Made by a program: the position numbers and the translations under genes. Below, piece by piece: positions 39,761 to 54,174 of a stretch of 64,000 nt of DNA. The DNA is taken from contig NZ_CP017641.1 of assembly GCF_001983935.1 (NCBI RefSeq), positions 7,676,001-7,740,000 of the forward strand, written 5' to 3'. The notes under the pieces were generated by a model. That model was not told the origin of the DNA. It worked only from the letters and a program-made list of their open reading frames with translations, and ran no database searches. Each line of letters starts with the position of its first letter. Positions within the stretch are counted from its first letter, which is position 1. Source of the DNA: Fuerstiella marisgermanici (GTDB lineage: Bacteria; Planctomycetota; Planctomycetia; Planctomycetales; Planctomycetaceae).

Positions 39761-40312
39761 ATGTTGACGTGGTTTCGGAATGTCTGGTTGGCGGTTTCTA
39801 CCGTCGCGCACGGCATGGGAGTGACATTAGTCACATTGCTGAAAACCTATCATCGCGATCGCCAGACATTCGCCGACACATATACTTACCCCGAAACACC
39901 GATCAAGGTGAAGCCACGTTACCGAGGCTTCCACCGCTTTGATTTGACGGTCTGCATCGGTTGCGAAAAGTGTGCTCAGGCGTGCCCTGTCGACTGCATC
40001 TACATTGAAAAAGTGAAAAGCCCGGTTGGTAAAGGGTTTCGCATTGATACGTTCGGGATCGATTACACGAAGTGCATGTTCTGCGCGTTGTGTGTTGAGC
40101 CCTGCCCTGTCGATTGCATCTTCATGGGGTCTAACCACGATCTTAGCTGCTACAGTCGCGACGGATGTATTGTGGACTACGCAAAGCTGCCGCTGGAATT
40201 GGCGTGGGGTAAAGCCACGTTGAATCCGACTGCTGTGGCGGAGTCAAAAGTGTTGCATAAGCCGGTTTGGGTGAAGGGCGAAGAAAGTCCTTTTGAGTTT
40301 GCTGAAAGTTAG
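39761..40312 (+). CDS. nuoI: NADH-quinone oxidoreductase subunit I (NuoI)
   Basis: 183 residues from ATG 39761. Two 4Fe-4S motifs are clear: [15 protein letters not shown] and [15 protein letters not shown], spaced as in NuoI, where they bind clusters N6a and N6b in the peripheral arm. A hydrophobic N-terminus ([20 protein letters not shown]) and the linker RYRGFHRFD are also typical. It carries electrons toward N2 and the quinone site. It is first in a set nuoI, DUF2203, nuoA, nuoC, nuoD. Complex I genes are normally nuoA-N; the rest must lie elsewhere. Confidence 0.95.
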
Positions 40313-40373
40313 GGTTCCTGACGTCAGTGCCCTGCGTCTCGCTTTTCCGAAAACACGGTAACGGGTGCGACAC

Positions 40374-40805
40374 ATGCGAACGGACGATTCTCTGTTGACG
40401 GTTGACGATGCAAATCAGCGACTGCCTTTAGTGCGAGCGATTGTGCGGGATGCGATTGACTTGAAGCGGGATGTCCTGCAGCGGCAAAGTCGTCTTTTGG
40501 ACTTGCGGGAACGCTATCCGGACGAGGGTGATGACGGATCTCCGTACGCGGAAGAAGTTTTGCAGATGGAGGAGTCGCTGGAGGCGGATGAAATTCGCAT
40601 CGACGGGTATTCACAGGAGTTGCGGCAGATCGGCGCGACTCTTCAGGATGCTGAAACCGGCCTTGTTGAATTTGCGTCGTCACTGGATGGCGACCCTGTG
40701 TGGTTGAGCTGGGTGTACGACGAACCGGACGTCAGTTTCTGGCGTTCTGAACGTGACGAACCCGCAAATCGTCGGCCGCTGGAACCAGCGGAACAAACGA
40801 ACTGA
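40374..40805 (+). CDS. DUF2203 family protein
   Basis: 143 residues from ATG 40374; a GTG nine bases upstream is an alternative. DUF2203 features: LTVDDANQRLPLVRAIVRD at the N-terminus and, at the end, ETGLVEFASSLDGDPVWLSWVYDEPDVSFWRSE, which matches the family's GLVDFPS..G..V.LCW..GE..I.FWH pattern. The middle is a long helical, acidic region that may form a coiled coil. The function of DUF2203 is not known. It sits between nuoI and nuoA, on the same strand with 61 bp and 7 bp gaps, so it is probably co-transcribed with complex I genes. Confidence 0.85.
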   Translation: MRTDDSLLTVDDANQRLPLVRAIVRDAIDLKRDVLQRQSRLLDLRERYPDEGDDGSPYAEEVLQMEESLEADEIRIDGYSQELRQIGATLQDAETGLVEFASSLDGDPVWLSWVYDEPDVSFWRSERDEPANRRPLEPAEQTN

Positions 40806-40812
40806 AAACGAT

Positions 40813-41379
40813 ATGACAAACCTTGTTGGACATCTTCTGCTTTTCGGCACTTCAGTGTGTGTGCTACTGGCGTTGCCGATTTTTATCGGTCGACTGGTGC
40901 GTCCCAAACTGCCGACACCGGAAAAAGACTCGATCTACGAGTGTGGTGAGCCTGCGATTGGTTCCAGCTACATTCAGTTCGACCTTCGGTTTTACGTCGT
41001 CGCGTTGCTGTTTATCGTGTTCGACGTCGAAGTGGCCTTCTTCTTTCCGTGGGCTGCGATTTATGGCAGTGCGACTCAGCTTGCCGATTCGCGACTCACT
41101 GACGAAGCTCGCTTGCAGCTTAGTGCTCGCCTGCAGGACTTGAATCCCGCGACAATGGATGCGGGCAACATTGTCTCAGCTGAGGCCGCTCAGTCGCTGG
41201 CAATCACTGGTTTTCTTGACCTGTTAGTTTTCTTCGCCGTGCTTATGGTTGGCTTCGCTTATGTCTGGAAGCGAGGCGATCTGGACTGGATTCGAGCTGT
41301 CACTCAGAAGTCACGCCAGGCGGCGGACCAAACCGTGGTTCCCGCAAGTCGGACGACCTCCGTGGCCACGCCCGTCTAG
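40813..41379 (+). CDS. nuoA: NADH-quinone oxidoreductase subunit A (NuoA)
   Basis: 188 residues from ATG 40813, longer than the common 120-150. Three membrane helices are visible. The loop YECGEPAIGSSYIQFDLRFYVVALLFIVFDVEVAFFFPW is the strongest NuoA signature, including the YECG Cys loop near the quinone site. Between helices 2 and 3 there is a polar stretch of about 50 residues (TQLADSRLTDEARLQLSARLQDLNPATMD), absent from most NuoA, and the C-terminus adds a polar tail. It starts 7 bp after the DUF2203 stop. Confidence 0.95.
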   Translation: MTNLVGHLLLFGTSVCVLLALPIFIGRLVRPKLPTPEKDSIYECGEPAIGSSYIQFDLRFYVVALLFIVFDVEVAFFFPWAAIYGSATQLADSRLTDEARLQLSARLQDLNPATMDAGNIVSAEAAQSLAITGFLDLLVFFAVLMVGFAYVWKRGDLDWIRAVTQKSRQAADQTVVPASRTTSVATPV

Positions 41380-41389
41380 AGTGTTATTG

Positions 41390-41410
41390 CCGGGACTTAC
41401 CCGGTTTTTT
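41390..41410 (+). terminator. Short intrinsic-terminator-like hairpin between nuoA and nuoC
   Basis: CCGGG (41390-41394) and CCCGG (41400-41404) flank loop ACTTA and are followed by six T (41405-41410), ten bases past the nuoA stop. The stem is short, so partial termination or attenuation inside the nuo cluster is more likely than full stop. Confidence 0.5.
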
Positions 41411-41515
41411 CCGAGTGCTTTCTGCCCTCTACTCTTCGACTCCACCAGCCGCAAAGCGTTGCTCTGGTTGGTAAAGCAACACCCGGGCAAATGCCCTGTG
41501 GTTGACTGAAACACC

Positions 41516-42049
41516 ATGAATATCAACGACATCCATTCCATACTGCTGGAAAAGTTTGGCGAAGCTGCTGTTGGTAGCGCCCCGGTCGAAGCCACCGATC
41601 CGTGGATCGTTGTCAGCCCGGAGAGCATCGTCGAAGTTGGCACGTTTGTGCGTGACGACGAACGTCTTCAGTTTGATCACCTCAATGATTTGTGTGGGTG
41701 TGATTACTTTGAGCCGGATGAGAAGAAGGCAGCAAAGTTCGGGCACGATCCGCACATCGAAGTTGTCTACAACCTGTCGAGTATTGAACTGAAGCACTAC
41801 TTGAAGCTGAAAGTCATTCTGCCACGCTGGAAGGATGACGTCGATGGTCAGCTTCCGGAAGCACCATCGGTGAGCACCGTTTGGAAGATCGCTGACTGGC
41901 ACGAACGCGAGGCCTACGATCTTGTCGGCATTCACTTCACCAATCATCCCAATCTCAGACGTATCCTGTGCCCCGAAGACTGGGTCGGACATGCTCTGCG
42001 AAAAGACTACGACTTCCCTCTGGAATACCACGGCGTTCGAGGCCGATAA
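41516..42049 (+). CDS. nuoC: NADH-quinone oxidoreductase subunit C (NuoC)
   Basis: 177 residues. The C-terminal signature is plain: [38 protein letters not shown], ending HGVRGR. The middle has the beta strand [12 protein letters not shown] and YNLSS. It is a separate NuoC rather than the NuoCD fusion. It pairs with NuoD, which starts 6 bp after its stop. The usual upstream nuoB is absent: the 136 bp between nuoA and nuoC hold no coding sequence. Confidence 0.95.
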
Positions 42050-42054
42050 GTGAT

Positions 42055-43293
42055 ATGAGCCTAACAATCGAAGATCCTCGCGTTGTCGAGTTTGACGTCC
42101 AGACCGACGAAATGTTGGTCAACATGGGGCCGCAGCATCCCAGCACGCACGGCGTTCTGCGGCTGCTGTTGAGAACTGACGGCGAAATCGTGCATGAGTG
42201 CACGCCGCATATCGGTTACCTGCATCGCTGCGCAGAAAAGATTGGTGAGAATCTTTGCGCGCCGCAGTGGATTCCGTACACCGACCGGATGGACTATCTG
42301 GCCGCGATGAACATGAATCTTGGCTTCGCTTTGACGATCGAGAAAATGATCGGCATGGAAGTTAACGAGAAGGCTCGGCATCTGCGAGTATTCATCGCGG
42401 AACTGGGCCGCATCGCCAGCCACCTTGTCGGTATGGGAGCTTATGGACTCGACTTGGGCACGTTTAGTCCGTTCCTGTATGCCTTCCGTGAACGCGAAAT
42501 TATTCTGGACTTCTTCGAAGACATCTGCGGTGCTCGCCTGACCTGCAGCTACGTCACGATGGGCGGAGCGACCCATGATTTACCGGAATCCATCGATGTT
42601 CCGGATGGTCTTGCGGCATTGCTGAAGATTCCGAAGGGCGGACACAAGCCGTTTTTCGAAGTCATCGAAATGTTCCTGTCATGGCTGGAAAAACGCGTTG
42701 CCGAGTACCACGCGTTACTGACCAACAACGCGATCTTCATCAAGCGGACAGCAGGAATTGGAATTCTGACGCGGGAAATGGCGATCAGTCATGGTTGCAC
42801 CGGACCAGTCTTGCGAGGCAGTGGTGTCGACTACGACCTGCGTCGCGATGGCGAACCGATCTACACACGAATGTACGCCGACTACGACTTCAAAGTGCAT
42901 TCCGCGCCGTTTAAAGACGCTCCGCGTGACGTTGTTTTGGGTGACTGCTGGTCTCGCTTTTATGTTCGCATGGTCGAACTGGTTGAAGCTATCGGGATCG
43001 TTCGCCAGTCCATTCCAAAGTATCAGGCAGCCGAAGGCAGCCATAAAGACACGTTCAAGTTCAATACGAAACTGCCGAAGGACGAAGTGTATCTGGAAAC
43101 CGAGTGTCCTCGCGGCCAGATGGGTTTCTACGTCGTCGGCAACGGCACTGCAGAACCGCTCCGCACTCGAGCCAAAAGCAGTTGCTTCTGCAATCTGTCG
43201 ATTACGGACCACATCTGCGCGGGCGTGCCTTTGGCTGACGTCCCGGCTGTGGTTGGTTCGCTGGACATCGTGATGGGCGAGATCGACCGGTAA
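42055..43293 (+). CDS. nuoD: NADH-quinone oxidoreductase subunit D (NuoD)
   Basis: 412 residues from ATG 42055. Family motifs: NMGPQHPSTHGVLRLLL near the quinone-binding pocket, HIGYLHRCAEKIGEN, PYTDRMDYLAAMNMN, and the final CFCNLSITDHICAGVPLADVPAVVGSLDIVMGEIDR. NuoD lines the quinone chamber together with NuoB. Because NuoB, which carries cluster N2, is not in this locus, it must be encoded elsewhere for complex I to work. The gene follows nuoC by 5 bases and ends the nuo group in this window. Confidence 0.97.
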   Translation: MSLTIEDPRVVEFDVQTDEMLVNMGPQHPSTHGVLRLLLRTDGEIVHECTPHIGYLHRCAEKIGENLCAPQWIPYTDRMDYLAAMNMNLGFALTIEKMIGMEVNEKARHLRVFIAELGRIASHLVGMGAYGLDLGTFSPFLYAFREREIILDFFEDICGARLTCSYVTMGGATHDLPESIDVPDGLAALLKIPKGGHKPFFEVIEMFLSWLEKRVAEYHALLTNNAIFIKRTAGIGILTREMAISHGCTGPVLRGSGVDYDLRRDGEPIYTRMYADYDFKVHSAPFKDAPRDVVLGDCWSRFYVRMVELVEAIGIVRQSIPKYQAAEGSHKDTFKFNTKLPKDEVYLETECPRGQMGFYVVGNGTAEPLRTRAKSSCFCNLSITDHICAGVPLADVPAVVGSLDIVMGEIDR

Positions 43294-43949
43294 CAACGCA
43301 GGTCGTCAATCGCGGACCTGCACAACGGTCTCTTCCAGTTTGGGCCGGGGCCAGAACCGTGGAAGCCTGAATTGGGTCAGCCAACAGGTTTGGTGGTTGG
43401 CTGGGCACCGGCTGTCGACTTCGAGACGCCATATCGCGAGAGAGTCCCATCGCGCCGGAGTTGCTTGCTCCGCTGAATAAGTGCGCGTTACGGCCCCTGA
43501 CGAAGCCTCCGCTGTCAGCGTGGGCTCGCTTTCGGTCTCCTTCCCGTGCTGCGCAGACACGAGAGAGCTGATCGTCTGGAAGGCGGCTTTGCTATGCGCT
43601 CTATGCCCGCTTCTCCATACAGCCGCGACGCATCCAATATGCAGGCTGCGTGAGCCCGGCACATTGATGCCTGTAAATGTTGCATAGTTGCGATTTGATG
43701 AGGCATTGTTCGGTGTGTGGATCTGCGGGTCGCATCGGATTTACGATCAAATCGCTGACTGTGCGCGCGGTTGAGTCGTAAATTTACAATGTTGCTTAAT
43801 GTGGCCGTTTTTTCGCTCGCGCCATGGCATGCCGATTGCGAATGGCTTAGGGCATTGGAACCGTGTGCTCGTTGCGAGTGCACACCGCCCTCGTCTCATC
43901 GGGATTGCTCCAGCATGTTGGTGAGCAGTTCGACTCAAGAGCCACCGCC
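43294..43949. other. 656 bp non-coding region before the nitrate cluster, with an inverted repeat
   Basis: No convincing gene. Near its start GCAGGTC (43298-43304) and GACCTGC (43315-43321) form a weak hairpin after nuoD. Later, ATTTACGA (43739-43746) and TCGTAAAT (43776-43783) are perfect 8 bp arms 29 bases apart, and the second overlaps the palindrome GTAAATTTAC (43778-43787). These lie about 170-210 bp before the transporter start and are candidate regulator sites. No nitrogen-regulator consensus was recognised with confidence. Confidence 0.45.
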
Positions 43950-44506
43950 ATGGAAATTCAAAACAAAGCCACCCGGATTCGTCTGTTTAACATTGGAACG
44001 CCGCAGATGCGGGCTTTCCACATGTCGTGGTTTGCTTTCTTTTTATGCTTCTTCGCCTGGTTCGGCATTGCACCACTGATGAAAGTGGTGCGTGATGAGA
44101 TGTCGCTGACGAAAGAACAGATCGGCTGGTGCATTATCGGATCGGTCAGCGTCACCGTGCTGGCTCGACTTTTCATCGGCTGGTTATGTGACCGCATCGG
44201 CCCGCGACTGGCTTACACGTGGCTGCTGTTGCTCGGATCGGTGCCGGTGATGTGTATCGGATTCGCGAACGACTACACCACGTTTCTGTGTTTTCGAATC
44301 GCCATCGGAGCGATCGGGGCTTCTTTTGTGATCACTCAGTATCACACGTCGATCATGTTTGCTCCCAACTGCGTGGGAACCGCCAATGCGACGTCTGCCG
44401 GGTGGGGGAACCTGGGTGGTGGAGTGACTCAACTGGTGATGCCATTGTTCTTTGCGACCTTCGTGGGCACTCTTGGTTTCAGTAACGCGATCGGCTGGCG
44501 CGCGGC

Positions 44507-44514
44507 CATGTTTG
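44507..44514. repeat. Left target-site duplication of the ISL3 element
   Basis: CATGTTTG, identical to 45810-45817 on the far side of the element. Eight bases is the usual ISL3 duplication. Confidence 0.93.
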
Positions 44515-45809
44515 GGTCCATCCGGGATTATTGTGGGTAGAGGTCGAGTCCTCCGCAGTAGAAGAGGATGGCGGTTTTGAAGTTGTCGCGGTTTCGGTAT
44601 CCGCCGACTCTTCGTTTGATGGCCATGATTTTGCTGTTCATTCCTTCGGCGACGGCGTTTGTGATTCCGTGAGTGCAGTAGCTCACCACATTGGCTAAGC
44701 GTTCTTTGATCGTGCGAGCGACTTTCTTCATTGGCTCCAGCTTTGTGTGGATGACTCGCTTGTACCAGTCATTGAAGAACGTCGTGGCCTCTGCCGGAGT
44801 GTCATGAACCCAGAGGTCTCGCAGCATCTCCTTGTAGGCCCACGCTTTGCCCGTGAGTAACTCTGCCTTCCATGCGGCATCAAAGCGTTCCTGCTGTTTT
44901 TCGCTGAGATTCTCCTGGCCTGAAAGCCACAGATACCGAGTTCCCGTCAATCGATCATCGCCTTCGGCGCGAAGCTTCTTCTGCTCCGACCGACGGACCT
45001 TGTCGACGGCTTCGGTTGCCAGCTTCATGATGTGAAAGCGGTCGTGCACAATCTTCTGTTCGGCCAATGCAATGTTGCCTTTGGTGCTCTTGACGTATGC
45101 GGCACTCATGTCCATCGCAACCGCCTCCACAGACTGCTTTTCACTGTCGGAAAGCTGATCGAAACAGGCATCAGCGGCTGCCGTGTCATGACCATCGGAA
45201 ATCGCTTCGACAGTGCTCTTGTCCAAGTCATAGATCAGCGTGACGTAGTTGTGTCGTTTTCGAAAGGCTTTCTCGTCGATGCCGATTCGAGGGAGGTTCT
45301 TCGATTGTTTGCGATCCTTCCCGCGAGCCACCGCCTTCTGCAGAATGTGCCACGATTCATCCCATGAGATCCCCAGAATGCTGCACGCCCCTTTCACGGT
45401 TTGTGTGGCCAGAAGAACGTCGATGGCGAAGCGTTCAAAGAACAATGAGAAGCGGCTGTTCTTTTCCGCCCAGGGAAGCCTGATCTGTTTGACGCCATGA
45501 TCCGGGCACTTCACGCGAGGCGTGCGGGCATGAAGGATGGTCGCAAATTGCATCGTGTCCAGATGCCGCCATTGGCGAGACTTCGTGTGGTCATAGCACG
45601 GCAGCTGCCTGTCGCAATCCGGACAGCAAAAAGTTTCGCCCTCGCCATGTTCGACGAAAACGTCGACCTGTTGAGCTTCCATATCCAGCTGAACGTCCGC
45701 CACAAACCACGGCCCCGTCAGTCCCAAAATCTGTTCGTAAAAGTCTGTTCCCTGCATCCCACGAAAACTAACGAATTAACGCCTCACCCACAAAGAACCC
45801 GGATGGACC
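44515..45809. mobile_element. ISL3-family insertion sequence (1,295 bp)
   Basis: The left end (top strand from 44515) reads GGTCCATCCGGG followed by ATTATTGTGGGT; the right end read inward from 45809 is GGTCCATCCGGG followed by TTCTTTGTGGGT. That is 21 of 24 matching positions. The element is bounded by 8 bp direct repeats and encodes one transposase on the minus strand. Intact ends, exact target duplication and an unbroken transposase indicate a recent, possibly active insertion. Confidence 0.96.
44528..45757 (-). CDS. ISL3-family transposase
   Basis: 409 residues. An N-terminal zinc-binding region (CCPDCDR near residue 45, CPDH near 84) recognises the ends, and a DDE catalytic domain follows: Asp161 in GIDEKAF, Asp216 in AMDMSAAY and Glu371 in NAVAEGMNSKIMAIKRRVGGYRN, which is the family's most conserved C-terminal block. 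HDRFHIMKLATEAVDKVRR is also typical. The start is 52 bp inside the right end and the stop 13 bp from the left end, so the gene fills the element. It runs antisense to the interrupted transporter. Confidence 0.96.
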   Translation of the reverse strand: MQGTDFYEQILGLTGPWFVADVQLDMEAQQVDVFVEHGEGETFCCPDCDRQLPCYDHTKSRQWRHLDTMQFATILHARTPRVKCPDHGVKQIRLPWAEKNSRFSLFFERFAIDVLLATQTVKGACSILGISWDESWHILQKAVARGKDRKQSKNLPRIGIDEKAFRKRHNYVTLIYDLDKSTVEAISDGHDTAAADACFDQLSDSEKQSVEAVAMDMSAAYVKSTKGNIALAEQKIVHDRFHIMKLATEAVDKVRRSEQKKLRAEGDDRLTGTRYLWLSGQENLSEKQQERFDAAWKAELLTGKAWAYKEMLRDLWVHDTPAEATTFFNDWYKRVIHTKLEPMKKVARTIKERLANVVSYCTHGITNAVAEGMNSKIMAIKRRVGGYRNRDNFKTAILFYCGGLDLYPQ

Positions 45810-45817
45810 CATGTTTG
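45810..45817. repeat. Right target-site duplication of the ISL3 element
   Basis: CATGTTTG, exact copy of 44507-44514. Confidence 0.93.
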
Positions 45818-46815
45818 TTGCCGGCATGATGTGCGCCCTGACTGGTGTCGCCTACTTCTTTCTAACTCAGGACGCGCCCGACGGTAACTTCAGCGATCTG
45901 CGAGCTAAGGGGCAGATGGCGGACAAGAAGTCGGTCAAGGGTTCGTTTCTGGCAGCATGCAATGACCGTCGCGTATGGGCGCTCTTCGTGATCTACGGTG
46001 CCTGCTTCGGCATCGAACTCACAATCAACAACGTGGCCGCTTTGTACTTTCTGGACTACTTCGACTACTTCAAAGAAATGAACACTGCGAAGGCGATCAG
46101 CACGGCTGGCATGATCGCCGGGTTGTTTGGATTAATGAACATTTTTGCCCGCACACTGGGTGGGGCATTTGGCGACAGGTTTGGTGCGAAGTGGGGACTG
46201 TCGGGGCGTGTGAAATGGTTGTTCGCGACGCTGTTTTGTGAAGGCTTGGCGCTAATGCTGTTCTCGCAGATGAACGTCCTGACGCTGGCGATTCCGACGT
46301 TGATTCTGTTCAGCCTGTTCGTGCAGATGAGTGAAGGAGCCACGTTCTCTGTGGTGCCGTTCATCAATAAGCGAGCACTGGGGTCTGTTTCCGGGATTGT
46401 CGGAGCAGGCGGAAACGCCGGTGCAGTGGCGGCCGGTTTCCTGTTTAAAGCGGAAACTATCTCGTGGCCAACGGCGCTGTTTATTCTCGGAGCTCTCGTG
46501 ACGTGTTGTTCGTTCCTGACGTTCGTTGTGAATTTCAGTGAGGCCGCCGAAACGGAAGCCCGCGAAGACACAGCGGCGGCAGACACTCAGCCAGTCCCCG
46601 AACTGGCCACGGCAACAGGTTAAGCGCTCTTCTTCTACCCAAGGGTAAGAAGATGCTCAAACCCCAGACGCGGAAGCCGAGCCTCGCAGAAAAACCGCTC
46701 GATGTGAACACCTAAAAGCCGGAATCGCGGCTCTCTCAATTTGGCTCTCTCCTGAGGAATACAGGAGAAGCAACGATTGTGCCCTGCTGTATCGGCCCTG
46801 ATCGAAAATCATCCC

Positions 46816-49686
46816 ATGCCCAACCCTATCGAAGTTTGGAAGTCCGAAAAGCATCCGTTCGACGTCTGGCCCGACGTCGAAAAATATGCCGCCGCGCAGA
46901 CGCCGATGAAGGCCATCGACACGCCTGATCTGGAGCGTATGAAATGGCATGGGTTGTTTTACCGAAAACGCGATGAGCCGGGTCGCTACATGACTCGTAT
47001 TCGCGTGACGGCTGGCGAACTGTCGGCCGATCAAGCTCGCGAAATTGCATTCATCGCGTACGAACTTGGCCACGGCATCGTCGACATAACAACGCGAGCC
47101 AACGTGCAGGTACAGGGGCTGGAAATTGAGCACCTGCCCGCTGTCGTATCGCGACTCGAACACGTCGGGCTTTCTGCAAAGCAAACCGGACACGATAACA
47201 TTCGCAACGTGTTCGCTCATCCTTTCAGCGGTTTGCAACATGATGAACTCATCGACACACGGCAGCTATGCCATGATGTCACCGAAGTGTTTCTGGACAG
47301 CCGCGAATATTCAGACCTGCCGCGCAAACTGAACATCTGCTTAAACGGGACCGATTCGCATTCGGCTCATTTCTGGACTCAGGACTTGAGTTTCCTGGCG
47401 ACTGAAGTCGATGGCGAAGTGCTGTTTCATGTTTTGCTGGCGGGAACTCAGGGCCAGAATCCTCGGCTTGCCTGGCATCTGCCCGTGCTTGTCCGGCCGG
47501 ATCAGGTCGTGGACGTAACGCGCTCCATTCTTGACCTGTTCAAGGCCAAAGGGACTCGTGAAAAACGAAACAAGTCACGGCTGCGTTTTCTGATCGAAGA
47601 CATCGGGATCGGCGGTGTGCTGGAATGGCTCGAACAGGATCTGCCGTTCCCATTGCAGCCTTGTGTGGGGGAACCGATTCCGGCATCCAGTCATGATGAG
47701 CTGGTCGGGTGGTTTCGCCAGACTGATGCGAAACTCTGGACGATGGGGATTTCCATTCCGCTCGGGCGCATGACGTGGCGTCAGCTGGAAGGCCTGGCCC
47801 TGCTCAGCAAAAAGTGGGGCAACGGACAGTTGCGGACAACTCACGAACAGGGCATTGCCGTCATTAACATCCCTACCGGCTTCAAAAACGCAGCGGCCAC
47901 CGATGCTGCAGCGCTGGGGCTGACTGTTCAGGCCGATCCCTTCGAGCTGAATACAATGGCATGCACCGGAAGTCAGTTCTGCAACATCGCTGTGACCGAA
48001 ACCAAGGGGCACATGTTTCAGCTGATTGAAAAACTGCGCAAGCGAGCTCTGAAGCTGCATGGCATTCGGATTCACATGAGCGGTTGTCCGTCCAGTTGTG
48101 CTCAGCACTTTACCGCTGACATCGGACTGAAGGGAGTTCGCGTGCGACGGTTGATCGGCACGCGCGAAGGTTTCGATGTGTTTCTGGGCGGCGGGCTGGC
48201 GGGGCAGGTTCACATGGGACTGCCATACAAACTCGGGGTCGACGTCGATCAGTTGCCAAACCTGGTGGAAGATGTTGTTAACGAATTCTATCTGAAGCAC
48301 CGCTCCGGCCAGACCTTCAGCGCGTATTGGCGTGAAAAACTGCAGGCCGCAGAGGCTGCCAAAGTGGGTGACGAAGAGTACAAAGTTCCTGTGTGGTTGT
48401 GCGAAGCGTGTGACTTCCATCACAACGGTGAAGACCCGCCCGTGTTCTGCCCCAGTTGCGCAGGCCTGCGTCGAAATTTCGCTCGCCTGGAAGATGGAAC
48501 AAGCGACGCGGCAGAAGCGGTTTCAGAAGGCGACAGCTTGCCTCCTGTTCGCGACGATGGTTTTCTGTTCGCGGCGAAGAATTCTGACCTGACGTCAGGT
48601 GCAGGGCTAACTGTGGAAGTTCAGGGGATTGAATACGCCCTGTTTCGTGTCGGCGACAAAGTTCGTTGCATCGATTCGGCGTGTCCACATGAAGGTGCAT
48701 CTTTGGCAGACGGCGAATTGCGTGATGACGTGGTTGTTTGTCCGTGGCATAGCTGGGAATTCGATACCTGCACCGGGTGCAGCCTGGAACCCAAGGGGAA
48801 TGACGTCAGTTCGTATGAAACGCTGATCGATGGTGGCAACATCTTCATTAAGCCGCAGGCAGCGAAGGCCATGCCGGTGAATTCAGCGGCGACTTCGGTT
48901 TTGGATCGCATCAAGGGCAGCGGTTCGGCGCGTCCGAAGGCAGTGAAGCCGGTTGAGGCTGTGCTGCAGGTTGTTGATGTCATTCAGGAAACGCCGGACG
49001 TGAAAACGTTTCGCCTGAATAACGCAGATGGCGCGATCCCGTTCGACCATCCGGGCAAGTTTGCGAAAGTGTGCATTCCGTCAGATGATGGTGATGTGTG
49101 GCGAAGCTTCACCATCAGTTCGCGTCCGGGCGACAAGCACTACCTCGATCTGACGATGAAACTGAACCCTGTTGGTCAGGTTACGCGATACCTGTTCGAC
49201 AACGTCGGTCCGGGCGATTCCATTCGATTAAAGGGGGCTCAAGGCGGCTTCTTTCTGGATACTCAACAGCATCCCGAACCGCTCGTGCTGGTGTCGGCGG
49301 GCAGCGGTATCACGCCAATGATGTCGATTGTTCGGTCGTTGGTGGCTGCTGAAAGTCAGCGACCGGTTACGTTTTTGTATGGGGCTCGCACCGAAGCCGA
49401 CATCATCTTCCGCAAAGAATGCGAACAACTTGCGCAGGACCATTCGTGGTTCAAATACCGAGTTTCGTTGTCGATGCCTGGCGAATCATGGACTGGATCA
49501 CACGGACGAATTGATGGCCCGCAGGTTTTGTCAGCGGTGAACGAGCCGACGGCGTGCCGGTACTTCCTGTGTGGCCCAAATGAATTTATGGAGAGTCTGG
49601 TTGAAGAGCTGAAGCACGCGAACGTGCCTGCTGAGCGGATTCATACGGAGCAATTTCACGCCGTAAAAACGCCGGCCACGATTTGA
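46816..49686 (+). CDS. Assimilatory nitrite reductase fused to rubredoxin-like, Rieske and FAD/NAD(P) reductase modules
   Basis: 956 residues from ATG 46816; an earlier in-frame start at 46777 adds only 13 residues. Residues about 35-510 are a siroheme/4Fe-4S nitrite or sulfite reductase: two half domains, with cluster Cys383 and Cys389 (CTGSQFC) and Cys424 and Cys428 (CPSSC). Residues 527-549 hold a rubredoxin-like Cys529-x2-Cys532 ... Cys545-x2-Cys548 site. Residues 595-680 are a NirD-like Rieske domain with Cys623-x-His625 and Cys642-x2-His645. Residues about 715-950 are a ferredoxin-reductase-type flavin module (RSFTISSRP, SAGSGITPMMSIV, FLCGPNEFM). The C-terminal 2Fe-2S plant-type ferredoxin found in some reductases is absent. 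It would reduce nitrite to ammonium with NAD(P)H-derived electrons within one chain. The Cys spacing favours the nitrite/ferredoxin-NiR branch; sulfite reductase is less likely given the next genes. Confidence 0.9.
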   Translation: MPNPIEVWKSEKHPFDVWPDVEKYAAAQTPMKAIDTPDLERMKWHGLFYRKRDEPGRYMTRIRVTAGELSADQAREIAFIAYELGHGIVDITTRANVQVQGLEIEHLPAVVSRLEHVGLSAKQTGHDNIRNVFAHPFSGLQHDELIDTRQLCHDVTEVFLDSREYSDLPRKLNICLNGTDSHSAHFWTQDLSFLATEVDGEVLFHVLLAGTQGQNPRLAWHLPVLVRPDQVVDVTRSILDLFKAKGTREKRNKSRLRFLIEDIGIGGVLEWLEQDLPFPLQPCVGEPIPASSHDELVGWFRQTDAKLWTMGISIPLGRMTWRQLEGLALLSKKWGNGQLRTTHEQGIAVINIPTGFKNAAATDAAALGLTVQADPFELNTMACTGSQFCNIAVTETKGHMFQLIEKLRKRALKLHGIRIHMSGCPSSCAQHFTADIGLKGVRVRRLIGTREGFDVFLGGGLAGQVHMGLPYKLGVDVDQLPNLVEDVVNEFYLKHRSGQTFSAYWREKLQAAEAAKVGDEEYKVPVWLCEACDFHHNGEDPPVFCPSCAGLRRNFARLEDGTSDAAEAVSEGDSLPPVRDDGFLFAAKNSDLTSGAGLTVEVQGIEYALFRVGDKVRCIDSACPHEGASLADGELRDDVVVCPWHSWEFDTCTGCSLEPKGNDVSSYETLIDGGNIFIKPQAAKAMPVNSAATSVLDRIKGSGSARPKAVKPVEAVLQVVDVIQETPDVKTFRLNNADGAIPFDHPGKFAKVCIPSDDGDVWRSFTISSRPGDKHYLDLTMKLNPVGQVTRYLFDNVGPGDSIRLKGAQGGFFLDTQQHPEPLVLVSAGSGITPMMSIVRSLVAAESQRPVTFLYGARTEADIIFRKECEQLAQDHSWFKYRVSLSMPGESWTGSHGRIDGPQVLSAVNEPTACRYFLCGPNEFMESLVEELKHANVPAERIHTEQFHAVKTPATI

Positions 49687-49714
49687 CGATCTTTCAGCGG
49701 CCCCTGGCACAATC

Positions 49715-51454
49715 ATGTCTTCGACGGAACTGCAACCACCACCCAACAGCCATCACGACGCGAACACAGCGTCGCTGCTGCCGATCATCGATGCGCCTGC
49801 CAGTCCTCCCGAACCGTTCGACCTGATTGGGGCGTTGCTGAAGGACCAGCAGACTTTATCAGCCGTAGACGTGTTCTCACAGGAGCACTCAAGCGGACTG
49901 CCGGCACAAGCGAAGTACTACAACAAGCTGTTGCCCGCATCTTCGCCGGGTGCGGGGCAGCAGTACGGATTCGAAGTTGATCTGGACCTGTGTTCCGGCT
50001 GCAAAGCGTGTGTCACGGCCTGCCATTCTTTAAACGGTCTGGACGAGCAGGAAACGTGGCGTGACGTAGGGTTGCTGCTGGGTGGGACGGCGGCGAATCC
50101 AATAATGCAGCATGTGACGACAGCCTGTCATCACTGTCTGGAACCGGGCTGCATGACGGCGTGTCCCGTCGACGCGTATGAAAAAGATCCGGTTACTGGC
50201 ATTGTTAAGCATCTTGATGATCAGTGCTTTGGCTGCCAGTATTGCACGCTGGCCTGTCCGTACGACGTCCCGAAATACAACGCCGCCAAAGGCATCGTGC
50301 GGAAGTGCGATATGTGCAGCGATCGCCTTGCCGTTGGAGAAGCTCCGGCGTGCGTTCAGGCGTGCCCTCACGAAGCCATCGCGATCAAAGTTGTGGACAA
50401 TCAACAGGTGATCGAAGCAGCGGAAACTGATCATTTTCTGCCGGGTGCTCCCGATCCGCAGATGACGTTGCCGACCACACACTTCAAAACGTCGCGTGTC
50501 TTTCCTCGAAACACGCTGCCAGCCGACTACCACGCCGTCAACCCGCAACACCCGCACTGGCCGCTGATTATCATGCTGGTGCTGACTCAGTTGTCCGTCG
50601 GAGCGTTCATTGTCGGTCAGGTGCTGGAAGCCGTCATCGATTCGTCGTTGCTGACGGAGTTTCGTCAACTGCATTCAACGAGTGCTTTGGGTTTTGGGCT
50701 ATTGGCGCTGGCCGCCAGCACCATGCACCTGGGCCGGCCTCAGTATGCGTTTCGTGCCATCATTGGCCTGCGACATTCGTGGCTGAGCCGTGAGATCGTC
50801 GCCTTCGGAGCGTTTGCCGTAGCAGCAGTGACATTCGCGGCGTTGTGCTGGTTGGATTCGTCTTCGCCATGGATTCCCGCGCTAAGCTGGCTGGTGAGTC
50901 TCACAGGCGTGGCCGGCGTGTTTTGTTCCGTGATGATTTATGTGTTTACCGGTCGTGAATTCTGGAGCTTCGGGCCGACGCTGATGAAGTTTGGTCTGAC
51001 TGGCGCGGTGCTCGGGCTGACCGCAACATGGCTGTCGCTGTTGGTGTTTGGCATCTTTGTTGACGCCACGTCTGCCGACGCATTGCTGCAACAAATCGGC
51101 CCTTCTCTGCTAAGAGCACTGGTGGTCGCTGCCACGGCAAAGCTGGTGTTGGAAGGTTCTTTGTTGCGTCATTTGTGGCACAGGCGACAGTCACCGCTGA
51201 AACGATCGGCCCGGTTGATTGCGGGGCCGCTGGCCGGAGCGATGTTTGCTCGTTGTGCGTGCGGAGTCCTGGGCGGCATTGTGATGCCCCTGTTTCTGTT
51301 GAACGAACTCTCGACGGCCGAACCGCGAGCAGCATTGATTGGGATCAGCGTCACGATGACATTTGTGGCGTGCGTTGTGGGCGAAACACTGGAACGTTAC
51401 CAATTTTTTGCCGCGTGCGCGGCTCCGCGAATGCCGGGCAAGCTGGCGGAGTGA
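49715..51454 (+). CDS. DmsB-DmsC-type fusion: four-cluster ferredoxin plus quinol-linked membrane anchor
   Basis: 579 residues, beginning 28 bp after the nitrite reductase stop. After an 85-residue polar lead, the iron-sulfur part (about 85-255) has CSGCKACVTACH, ACHHCLEPGCMTACPVDAY, CFGCQYCTLACPYDVPK and CDMCSDRLAVGEAPACVQACPHEAI, i.e. four cysteine groups as in DmsB. From about residue 285 to 570 are hydrophobic segments matching DmsC (HSTSALGFGLLALAASTMHLGRPQYAFRAIIGLRHSWLSREI, FTGREFWSF, RYQFF). DmsB and DmsC are usually separate proteins. Just ahead of a molybdopterin nitrate reductase, it should relay electrons from menaquinol to that enzyme. It resembles the electron-transfer part of quinol-linked assimilatory reductases. 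Confidence 0.88.
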   Translation: MSSTELQPPPNSHHDANTASLLPIIDAPASPPEPFDLIGALLKDQQTLSAVDVFSQEHSSGLPAQAKYYNKLLPASSPGAGQQYGFEVDLDLCSGCKACVTACHSLNGLDEQETWRDVGLLLGGTAANPIMQHVTTACHHCLEPGCMTACPVDAYEKDPVTGIVKHLDDQCFGCQYCTLACPYDVPKYNAAKGIVRKCDMCSDRLAVGEAPACVQACPHEAIAIKVVDNQQVIEAAETDHFLPGAPDPQMTLPTTHFKTSRVFPRNTLPADYHAVNPQHPHWPLIIMLVLTQLSVGAFIVGQVLEAVIDSSLLTEFRQLHSTSALGFGLLALAASTMHLGRPQYAFRAIIGLRHSWLSREIVAFGAFAVAAVTFAALCWLDSSSPWIPALSWLVSLTGVAGVFCSVMIYVFTGREFWSFGPTLMKFGLTGAVLGLTATWLSLLVFGIFVDATSADALLQQIGPSLLRALVVAATAKLVLEGSLLRHLWHRRQSPLKRSARLIAGPLAGAMFARCACGVLGGIVMPLFLLNELSTAEPRAALIGISVTMTFVACVVGETLERYQFFAACAAPRMPGKLAE

Positions 51455-51578
51455 CGGGAACGCGGCCGCCGACGTAGAGAAAGTCGCAGCGACGTCCCCT
51501 CAGTTTTGCTGTCTCGCCGATATCGGGGAGGCCCTACGAACGCAGCCTTCGGTTGCAGTAAGGAAATGAACAAACCGC

Positions 51579-53858
51579 ATGACTGAACCTTCCACGCTGC
51601 CACCCGCGCCGGCCGACTCAAAGACACCAATCTACCGGACCTTGCGCAACCTCCTGCATCAACAACGCGGGCCGCTTACGCGCGAACTGTTGCTGGAACC
51701 GGGGAACTTCGGACTGGGCCAGGTTCCCGCAAGAGTTCGTCCGGATGCCACCACGGATATGGTGTGCGGTTACTGTTCCACCGGCTGCAGTTTGCGAGTT
51801 CACCTCAAAGACGGCGAAGCGACCAATCTGACTCCGGCGACTGAGTATCCCGTCAACCTTGGCATGGCGTGCCCGAAAGGTTGGGAAGCGCTTAGTGTGC
51901 TGGATTCGCCCGATCGAGCAACCAGGCCTCTGCTGCGTGACCAGACCGGGCGGCTGAATCCCATCGACTGGGACTCCGCCATGACCACGTTCACCGATCG
52001 CTTCAAGGCTATTCAGGCGGAACACGGCCCGCACTCTGTTGCCTTTCTGAGTACCGGTCAAATGGCCACGGAAGAGATGGCGTTTCTGGGAGCGTTGACG
52101 AAATTCGGCATGGGGCTGCTGCACGGTGACGGGAATACTCGGCAGTGCATGGCGACGGCGGTCGTCGCGTATAAACAGGCATTCGGTTTTGATGCTCCGC
52201 CCTATACGTACGCCGACTTCGAGGAATCCGATGTCATCGTGCTGGTCGGCAGCAACCTGTGTATCGCTCATCCCATCATGTGGGAACGAGTCATGCGGAA
52301 CCCGCATTCGCCTGAAATAATCGTTGTCGATCCGCGAATGACCGAAACCGCCATGAACGCAAGTCAGCATCTTGCGGCTGCTCCAAAGTCGGATCTGTCT
52401 TTGATGTATGGCATCGCTCGCATTCTGATCGACAACGACTGGGTGGATCGCGACTACATCGATCAACATACGAACGACTTCGAAGCCTTCGCCGAACATG
52501 TGGCGACGTTCACGGACGAACGAGTGACCGCAGACACCGGTCTCAGTGCGAAGCAGCTTCACCGGTTTGCGGAAACGATCCACAACGGCCAGCGCGTGTC
52601 GTTTTGGTGGACGATGGGTGTGAACCAAAGTCATCAGGGAACTCGCACGGCTCAGGCCATCATCAATCTCGCTTTGATGACGGGGAATATCGGCCGTCCG
52701 GGTACCGGAGCCAACAGCGTCACGGGCCAATGCAACGCAATGGGTTCGCGACTGTTTAGCAACACGACCAACCTGCTGGGCGGGCACGATTTTACCAGTG
52801 CCGAACATCGTCGCAAGATCGCTGACATTCTGCAGATCGATGAAGCCCTGATTCCACGCGAAAACAGTTTGCCGTACAACGAAATCATGGAAGGCATTTT
52901 GCGAGGAAAGATCAAGGGGCTGTGGGTAGTGTGTACGAACCCCGCTCATTCGTGGATCAACCAGAACCAGTGCCGCGACATTCTGGATCGCCTTGATTTT
53001 CTGGTCGTACAGGACATGTATTCAACAACAGAAACTGCAAACATGGCGGACCTGATTCTGCCGGCCGCTGGTTGGGGCGAAAAAGAAGGCACGCTGATCA
53101 ATTCCGAACGCCGCATAGGCGCGCTTAAGAAAGTTCGCAAAGCGCCGGGCGAGGCGCTCTCGGATTTCAATATCTTCAAACTCGTGGCACACTACTGGGG
53201 TTGCGGCGAGATGTTTCGCGAATGGGATTCTCCCGAGGCTGTGTTTCGGATTTTGCAGCGTTGTTCCGAAGGGCAGCCGTGCGACATTACGGGGATTGAA
53301 GGTTATTCGCAGATTGACGCGACGGGCGGGATTCAATGGCCGTTTGCGAAATCGGAGGGCGATAAGCAGAAGGCGGAGGTGGCGGCCGAACGACGACTGT
53401 TTGCCGACGGCCAATTTTTTCACCCGGACGGACGCGCCAAATTTTTGTTCGAAGCACCTCGACCACTGACCGAACCGCCGAGCCGGAACTTCCCGTTCAT
53501 CCTGCTCACGGGCCGTGGCACGGTCGCTCAGTGGCACACTCAGACGCGCACCGGAAAATCGGCCGTGCTGCGAAAGCTGAGCCCTCAGCAGATCTTCGTC
53601 GAAATCAATCCAGCCGACGCGCGGGCGCTGGCGCTCGAACCGGGCGACATGGCGACCGTGGCTTCACAGCGAGGTCGCCTGCAGGCGCGAACAGTCTGCA
53701 CTCACAGCGTTCAGCCTGGCCACGTCTTCATCGCGATGCATTATGAGGCGGCCAACCAGCTGACGGATGCCGTCTTCGACCCGTATTCGAAACAGCCCGC
53801 ATATAAAGCCTGCGCTGTGCAGGTTTCGCGAGTTCACGGCTACAACGAATCTCGCTGA
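51579..53858 (+). CDS. Molybdopterin nitrate reductase catalytic subunit (NasA/NapA-type)
   Basis: 759 residues. The N-terminal 4Fe-4S site is Cys63-x2-Cys66-x3-Cys70 and Cys98 ([19 protein letters not shown]), and the molybdenum ligand is Cys190 in [18 protein letters not shown], as in Cys-ligated nitrate reductases. Later blocks [37 protein letters not shown]-like [13 protein letters not shown] and [20 protein letters not shown] are typical. There is no twin-arginine leader, so the enzyme is cytoplasmic, and it lacks the C-terminal 2Fe-2S domain of some NasA. Formate dehydrogenase is an alternative by fold but would have Sec/Cys with a different context. It ends the cluster of transporter, nitrite reductase, electron-transfer fusion and this gene. 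Confidence 0.9.
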
Positions 53859-54174
53859 CTTGTGGCCGGGGAACAAGCGTTTCGGACGATGAAGGCTGTT
53901 TTCCACGAGCCCGAGCCGTCTGCAACAAAAGGCAAACTGCTCTAAGTGAGTCATTTGGCTGCCGCCTCGAGATTCACGTGGCACGGCCCGCGGAAGTTCG
54001 TCCCCTGTCCGGGAAATGCTAAGCCCTGCCGTGCTTCAGCCCAGCGTCATTGCTATAAAACGTCGAACATTCTGCTCGATTTTGACGTTTTAAAGGGCCC
54101 GGCCGCAGACGGTACGCGGCCTAAACGCTCGGGACGAGCATTTTCCGGATTCGAACTTCGAGCGAATAACAGCG
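53859..54174. other. 316 bp gene-free region upstream of ilvE, with an inverted repeat
   Basis: AAAACGTC (54057-54064) and GACGTTTT (54084-54091) are 8 bp perfect arms 19 bases apart, about 85 bp before the ilvE start. Possible operator; no known motif matched. The rest has nothing I recognise. Confidence 0.4.

Follow-up and report, generated by a model that had tools for sequence, protein, structure and literature searches.

An apparently recent ISL3 insertion splits an NNP-like nitrate transporter gene at the head of a nitrate-assimilation cluster in Fuerstiella marisgermanici

Insertion sequences of the ISL3 family carry a single DDE transposase with a zinc ribbon and a helix-turn-helix, are bounded by imperfect terminal repeats and leave a target duplication, for which 8 bp is the classical length (PMC7643977). 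In the CLJ-ISL3 burst of Pseudomonas aeruginosa, many copies of one such element, with imperfect terminal repeats and 8-bp duplications, disrupt genes in one strain, and a hybrid duplication was interpreted there as IS–IS recombination (PMC7643977).

Here we describe an ISL3 element in a window of 64,000 nucleotides of the marine planctomycete Fuerstiella marisgermanici (NZ_CP017641.1, positions 7,676,001 to 7,740,000), a species first published as Fuerstia marisgermanici (strain NH11T). The element shares the family architecture outlined above, and, as in the CLJ-ISL3 burst, it is present in many copies in one strain. The two cases differ in host, element and context, since CLJ-ISL3 has 2,985 bp and three genes, whereas the present element has 1,295 bp and one gene and no clinical context. 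The interrupted gene resembles those of the NNP (NarK/NasA/NRT2) porters in its best match (TIGR00886), in a fold close to NarK (model of a relative, L077) and in its glycine-rich AGWGNLGGG and AGGNAGA segments, but unlike the NNP porters its genus relatives fall below the TIGR00886 cut-off, and the window copy is broken. The features of the locus are as follows, in window coordinates.

43950–44514, plus strand: NNP/NarK-like nitrate transporter, 5′ part; 188 native residues, TIGR00886 positions 1–169, 162.6 bits
44507–44514, no strand: target duplication CATGTTTG, left copy, 8 bp
44515–45809, no strand: complete ISL3-family insertion sequence, 1,295 bp, from its boundaries, repeats and 20 full-length genomic copies
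44515–44538, plus strand: left terminal inverted repeat, 21/24 bases matching
44528–45757, minus strand: intact ISL3 transposase, 409 aa, with zinc ribbon, helix-turn-helix and DDE domain (PF14690, PF13542, PF01610; NF033550)
45786–45809, minus strand: right terminal inverted repeat, 21/24 bases matching
45810–45817, no strand: target duplication CATGTTTG, right copy, 8 bp
45811–46623, plus strand: NNP/NarK-like nitrate transporter, 3′ part; 270 codons, TIGR00886 positions 171–368, 116.7 bits, alignment with 13 relatives
46813–49686, plus strand: fused assimilatory nitrite reductase, 957 aa from the ATG at 46813, with NirA-like, rubredoxin-like, Rieske and FAD/NAD reductase domains (Pfam)
49715–51454, plus strand: DmsB-like iron-sulfur protein fused to a DmsC-like membrane anchor, 579 aa (PF13247, PF04976)
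51579–53858, plus strand: molybdopterin oxidoreductase, putative assimilatory nitrate reductase, 759 aa (NCBIfam and cluster position)

An earlier note on this DNA had described an element of 1,295 bp at 44515–45809 with 21/24 terminal repeats, an exact 8-bp duplication and an intact transposase, and each of these values was reproduced on re-measurement. By scripted comparison, the two flanks (CATGTTTG) were identical with zero mismatch. The open 409-aa transposase frame scored 318.1 bits against the NCBIfam ISL3 equivalog NF033550 (cut-off 180) and covered all 240 positions of Pfam DDE_Tnp_ISL3 (PF01610) with 247.1 bits (cut-off 23). Thus, a transposase above the curated cut-off was found together with an 8-bp duplication and imperfect terminal inverted repeats, as in the ISL3 family. 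These results confirm that 44515–45809 is a complete ISL3 insertion, which breaks the transporter gene.

The earlier note had also proposed a search for further copies. The genome of the species is one closed contig of 8,920,478 bases, and within it we identified 20 full-length copies of the element and two short fragments. Compared with the window copy, three were identical (four identical copies in all), seven carried a single base difference and the remaining nine between 2 and 23. The transposase frame was open in 19 of the 20 copies and carried a stop in one. Exact 8-bp duplications flanked 12 copies, two more had duplications with one mismatch, and six had none. Because the element has 20 full-length copies, 12 of them with exact duplications, the arrangement in the window is not a matter of chance. 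The identity among copies suggests recent activity of the element. Other ISL3 copies (L026, L020, L028, L010 and more) also lie inside long reading frames, one of which was recognized by eye as a WD40-repeat protein.

No near-identical element was found outside the species in the genus, family or plasmid searches. A related element, 70% identical, was present in one of the seven other genus genomes. In the family, where two candidates were scored per genome, 24 of 170 genomes (own included) gave some match; among matches of at least 1.1 kb the best reached 70–71% DNA identity, higher values being confined to short stretches. The plasmid search gave 3,058 records with a match, all below 60% protein identity and the best-ranked at 40%. 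Within these searches, the burst of copies is confined to F. marisgermanici.

We next consider the interrupted gene. Read into the element, the 5′ part gains 8 foreign residues and ends at a stop codon at 44538–44540, while the first ATG of the 3′ part lies inside the duplicated target (45811, in frame). The earlier note had predicted a 456-residue protein after excision in silico; joining of the flanks in a script gave 1,371 bases, that is, 456 codons and a stop with no internal stop, so that the predicted protein was recovered, open throughout. The NarK family model TIGR00886 was the best NCBIfam match for both halves, and the profile ranges matched by the two halves adjoin.

The assignment to a family requires some care. 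The two halves together do not reach the curated TIGR00886 cut-off of 311.7 bits, and the intact relatives in genus genomes G002 (278.8 bits) and G004 (276.8 bits) also remain below it; since intact genus relatives behave in the same way, the transporter is best described from its sequence as a divergent NNP-like branch, and we call it NNP-like rather than a full member of the NNP family. The other five of the seven genus genomes gave no TIGR00886 match above 68.6 bits. G004 also has, at C32:30108–33080 (L166), two further neighbouring matches to the NarK family (163 and 252.5 bits). Both NNP signatures reported in the earlier note were present and near-invariant in 25 relatives: in AGWGNLGGG every column was invariant except L155 (conserved in at least 90%), and in AGGNAGA all except the fifth. 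R73 and R300 were invariant in the same relatives. We take the two segments, together with an arginine pair, one in helix 2 and one in helix 8, to be marks of NNP porters, and R73 and R300 to be equivalent to the nitrate-binding arginines of NarK.

An AlphaFold model was made of the relative L077 from a 25-row alignment (mean pLDDT 86.7); L077 and the window protein align to each other free of gaps up to the break and share the same residue numbering. The model places R73 in a helix at residues 55–83 and R300 in a helix at 278–314, the predicted helices 2 and 8, and the break after residue 188 would fall within predicted helix 6 (residues 179–204). In a fold search with this model, NarK (4u4w) ranked 2 of 748 matches with TM scores of 0.67/0.70; SV2A ranked first, and many other MFS carriers matched as well. 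When solved structures were searched by sequence, with the single halves and with half profiles, neither NarK nor NarU chains came up at limits of 0.001, 0.001, 1e-5 and 0.01. Family resemblance and the neighbouring genes are the grounds for taking nitrate as the probable substrate.

Using the 3′ half, we fetched 467 stretches of genome contigs encoding a relative and kept the best 80 loci, a few of which come from the same genome. In all 80 the two halves are contiguous, the 5′ half lying in frame immediately before the 3′ half, and over the part present the window 5′ part is 65–88% identical to every one of them. The 5′ half was present from its start in 74 loci; in the other six it begins later or is truncated at a contig end. 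Of the 80 loci, 79 were free of in-frame stops. The locus L126 (9446–10813), from a Candidatus Zixiibacteriota bin, carries a single in-frame stop at residue 357, late in the transporter, which may be a true gene defect or an error of sequencing; broken relatives may thus exist elsewhere. In an alignment with 13 hand-picked relatives, the window sequence deviated at none of the columns invariant in all the others, 93 in one half and 90 in the other (0/183), compared with up to 6 and 8 deviations for other rows. Against G002, dN/dS was 0.07–0.08 for both halves and two neighbouring genes, but with synonymous sites near saturation and several other comparisons giving no value, this ratio is given no weight here. 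The lack of decay in either half indicates that the gene was whole and kept until recently. Together with the three identical copies and the exact duplication, these observations support the recent origin claimed in the earlier note, and the insertion is apparently recent.

How recent is a separate question. Strain NH11T is kept on a peptone-glucose medium (PMC5177795), and the sequenced type strain could be a domesticated mutant in which the insertion arose during laboratory culture on peptone medium. Both the peptone in the maintenance medium, M2mod, and the identity of the window copy to three others agree with such an origin, but identity over 1,295 bp cannot tell years from a much longer time, and we consider a laboratory origin doubtful, albeit the most plausible of the alternatives weighed here.

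We then examined the genes downstream of the transporter. As the earlier note had claimed, the element breaks the transporter gene while the reductase frames downstream are open. The 957-aa fused nitrite reductase contains the NIR_SIR domain; its rubredoxin-like match is weak (22.0 bits, below the cut-off of 26.5), and its best NCBIfam matches, nitrite reductase/NirA, fall below their cut-offs. From its domain composition it is seemingly a self-contained enzyme. For the molybdopterin oxidoreductase, the NCBIfam scores were 484.5 bits (formate dehydrogenase alpha), 452.3 (NasA) and 433.6 (NasC), all below cut-offs, and it is taken as a nitrate reductase because of its place in the cluster and its neighbours. 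The DmsB–DmsC-like fusion next to an assimilatory-type reductase might point to quinol-driven assimilatory nitrate reduction.

Parts of this cluster recur among the 80 related loci, many of which are cut by contig ends: a relative of the reductase (at least 50% identity, best stretch) was detected in 20, of the iron-sulfur/anchor protein (at least 45%) in 20 and of the nitrite reductase (at least 50%) in 10. Within the genus, G002 has a relative of the reductase at 75% identity and G004 a 66% piece at the end of a contig; in the remaining five genomes, relatives reach about one-third identity or less (best stretch). The fused nitrite reductase was matched at full length only in its own genome among the eight of the genus. 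In the G002 cluster (L164, 6388–9414), a 1,008-aa frame, NirB-like by eye, replaces the fused NirA-like one. Rfam gave no match at gathering scores in 40000–54000, and a hairpin 3′ of the transporter stop was not unusual (z −1.23).

To determine whether nitrate could enter by another route, we searched the closed genome for other importers; the earlier note had suggested looking for another NNP transporter. The TIGR00886 profile matched six places, namely the two halves and then sites of at most 75.6 bits, so that this profile search found no second NNP transporter. The 75.6-bit site, at 2912635, was considered as a backup NNP transporter and rejected; its best match is TIGR00893 (D-galactonate type), itself below the cut-off of that model. 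Two permeases matched the NrtB type with 88 and 47.7 bits (cut-off 209.05). An NrtABC importer was likewise rejected, both permeases lying far below the cut-off and being matched better by SaoP, TauC or SsuC-type models. For the ATPase beside one permease, the nitrate NrtCD type was the second-best model (172.1 bits, cut-off 291.8). No formate/nitrite channel of the NirC/FocA type was detected in the genome. Within the families searched (NNP, NrtB and formate/nitrite channel), the strain is likely to be without a dedicated nitrate importer.

Because no other NNP transporter, cut-off-level NrtB permease or formate/nitrite channel was found, nitrate uptake has probably been lost while the reductase frames stay open. 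The insertion could also be real and yet leave nitrate assimilated as before, with uptake through an ABC importer or a transporter of another family. The three open cluster genes downstream are in agreement with this, as are the two permeases resembling the taurine/sulfonate/nitrate class, one of them adjoining the NrtCD-like ATPase; however, the distance of both from the nitrate-permease model, their closeness to SaoP, TauC or SsuC-type models and the lack of a NirC/FocA-type channel make continued uptake by such a route unlikely.

Taken together, we propose that a recently active ISL3 copy transposed into an 8-bp target in the first gene of a nitrate-assimilation cluster, splitting the transporter, with the main nitrate importer probably lost and the reductases kept; we assign this reading a probability of about 0.85. 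In the proposed sequence of events, the transposase would have duplicated CATGTTTG on insertion, the exact repeats being observed and the mechanism taken from the family. Cut within predicted transmembrane helix 6, the frame could encode no more than an N-terminal piece of five helices ending in 8 foreign residues, and a C-terminal piece would be made only if translation restarts. The invariant arginines of predicted helices 2 and 8 would then lie on separate pieces, and neither should be able to transport nitrate by itself. The loss of uptake would have gone unnoticed during growth on organic nitrogen. Judging from the sequence, the transporter gene is almost surely inactive. Precise excision could in principle restore it, and the culture may be mixed, with some cells lacking the insertion.

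Split carriers of the MFS, such as LacY, can be functional when their parts are co-expressed. We considered whether both pieces might be made here and assemble into a working two-part nitrate carrier split inside helix 6, the duplicated target providing the start codon of the C-terminal piece. An in-frame ATG is indeed present at 45811, and both pieces keep all residues invariant in the 13 relatives, but a recent insertion accounts for this lack of decay equally well, the break is predicted to lie inside helix 6 and not in a loop, and no sigma-70-like promoter was detected between 43300 and 46900, a weak test in this phylum. We regard a two-part carrier as very improbable.

Three other copies of the element gave evidence of rearrangement. 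The copies at 1205459–1206753 (L014), 2313753–2315047 (L018) and 2361582–2362876 (L019) of G000:C1 all lie on the minus strand. None is flanked by a matching pair of targets; instead, each left target recurs as the right target of another copy, forming a closed cycle. Placing the segments in the order S1-S3-S2-S4 recovers all three duplications. From these sequences, two segments appear to have been swapped: one of 46,534 bp (with uvrB), separating the second and third copies, and one of 1,106,999 bp, separating the first and second. Rejoining by this rule gave a 539-aa frame (open at both ends) across one joint, a 403-aa frame across a second and none of at least 80 aa at the third, compared with 344, 151 and 245 aa at the joints as assembled; the frames back the swap only moderately. 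The common orientation of the three copies fits excision and re-integration via recombination between copies, and misassembly among identical repeats would look identical to IS–IS recombination at these three copies.

Further repeats were observed around these joints. One of the three targets also lies beside a fourth copy, L021 (G000:C1:3529496–3530790), which has a stop in its transposase and whose flank duplicates a flank of L014. The stretch common to L021 and L014 measures 2,472 bp and is 99.9% identical, comprising 542 bp of element (as fetched) and about 1,930 bp of flank. Other repeats are common to the flanks of L013, L014, L016 and L021. A phage capsid-like gene (L173, 10356–11477) and a partial tail tape-measure-like gene (left flank of L014) lie near ISL3-bounded joints, and prophage remnants thus seem to be involved in the rearrangement.

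At the transporter site itself, an assembly artefact, in which the assembler placed the element here while the gene is whole in the cell, is the least probable reading of all and was rejected. Misjoins are known to arise where, as here, 20 near-identical copies are present, and three of the others have permuted flanks, but a misjoin would not yield an exact 8-bp duplication and a frame resuming in register, which need a real insertion and show that the flanks belong together. In addition, the published genome was, according to its assembly description, obtained from 13 SMRT cells of long PacBio reads, with sub-reads reaching 20 kb; it was corrected with Illumina data and checked with PacBio data (PMC5177795).

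The main text of the species paper (PMC5177795) does not contain the word 'nitrate' by word search, and its physiology section gives carbon sources and enzymes and not nitrogen sources. Literature searches on insertion sequences in nitrate transporter genes, on planctomycete nitrate assimilation or transporters, on planctomycete insertion sequences or rearrangement, and on Fuerstiella and nitrate gave nothing on this locus in the portions of text covered, including those of PMC6400420.

Disruption of a dispensable gene by an insertion sequence in a cultured strain is a common and well-known type of event, and the split transporter matters mainly for reading the nitrogen diet of this strain: nitrate assimilation by the type strain should not be assumed from its reductase genes. 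A genome with such a burst of near-identical copies is being reshaped by a single element. The locus also offers a simple test of how large a share of a planctomycete's nitrate uptake passes through one NNP-like porter.
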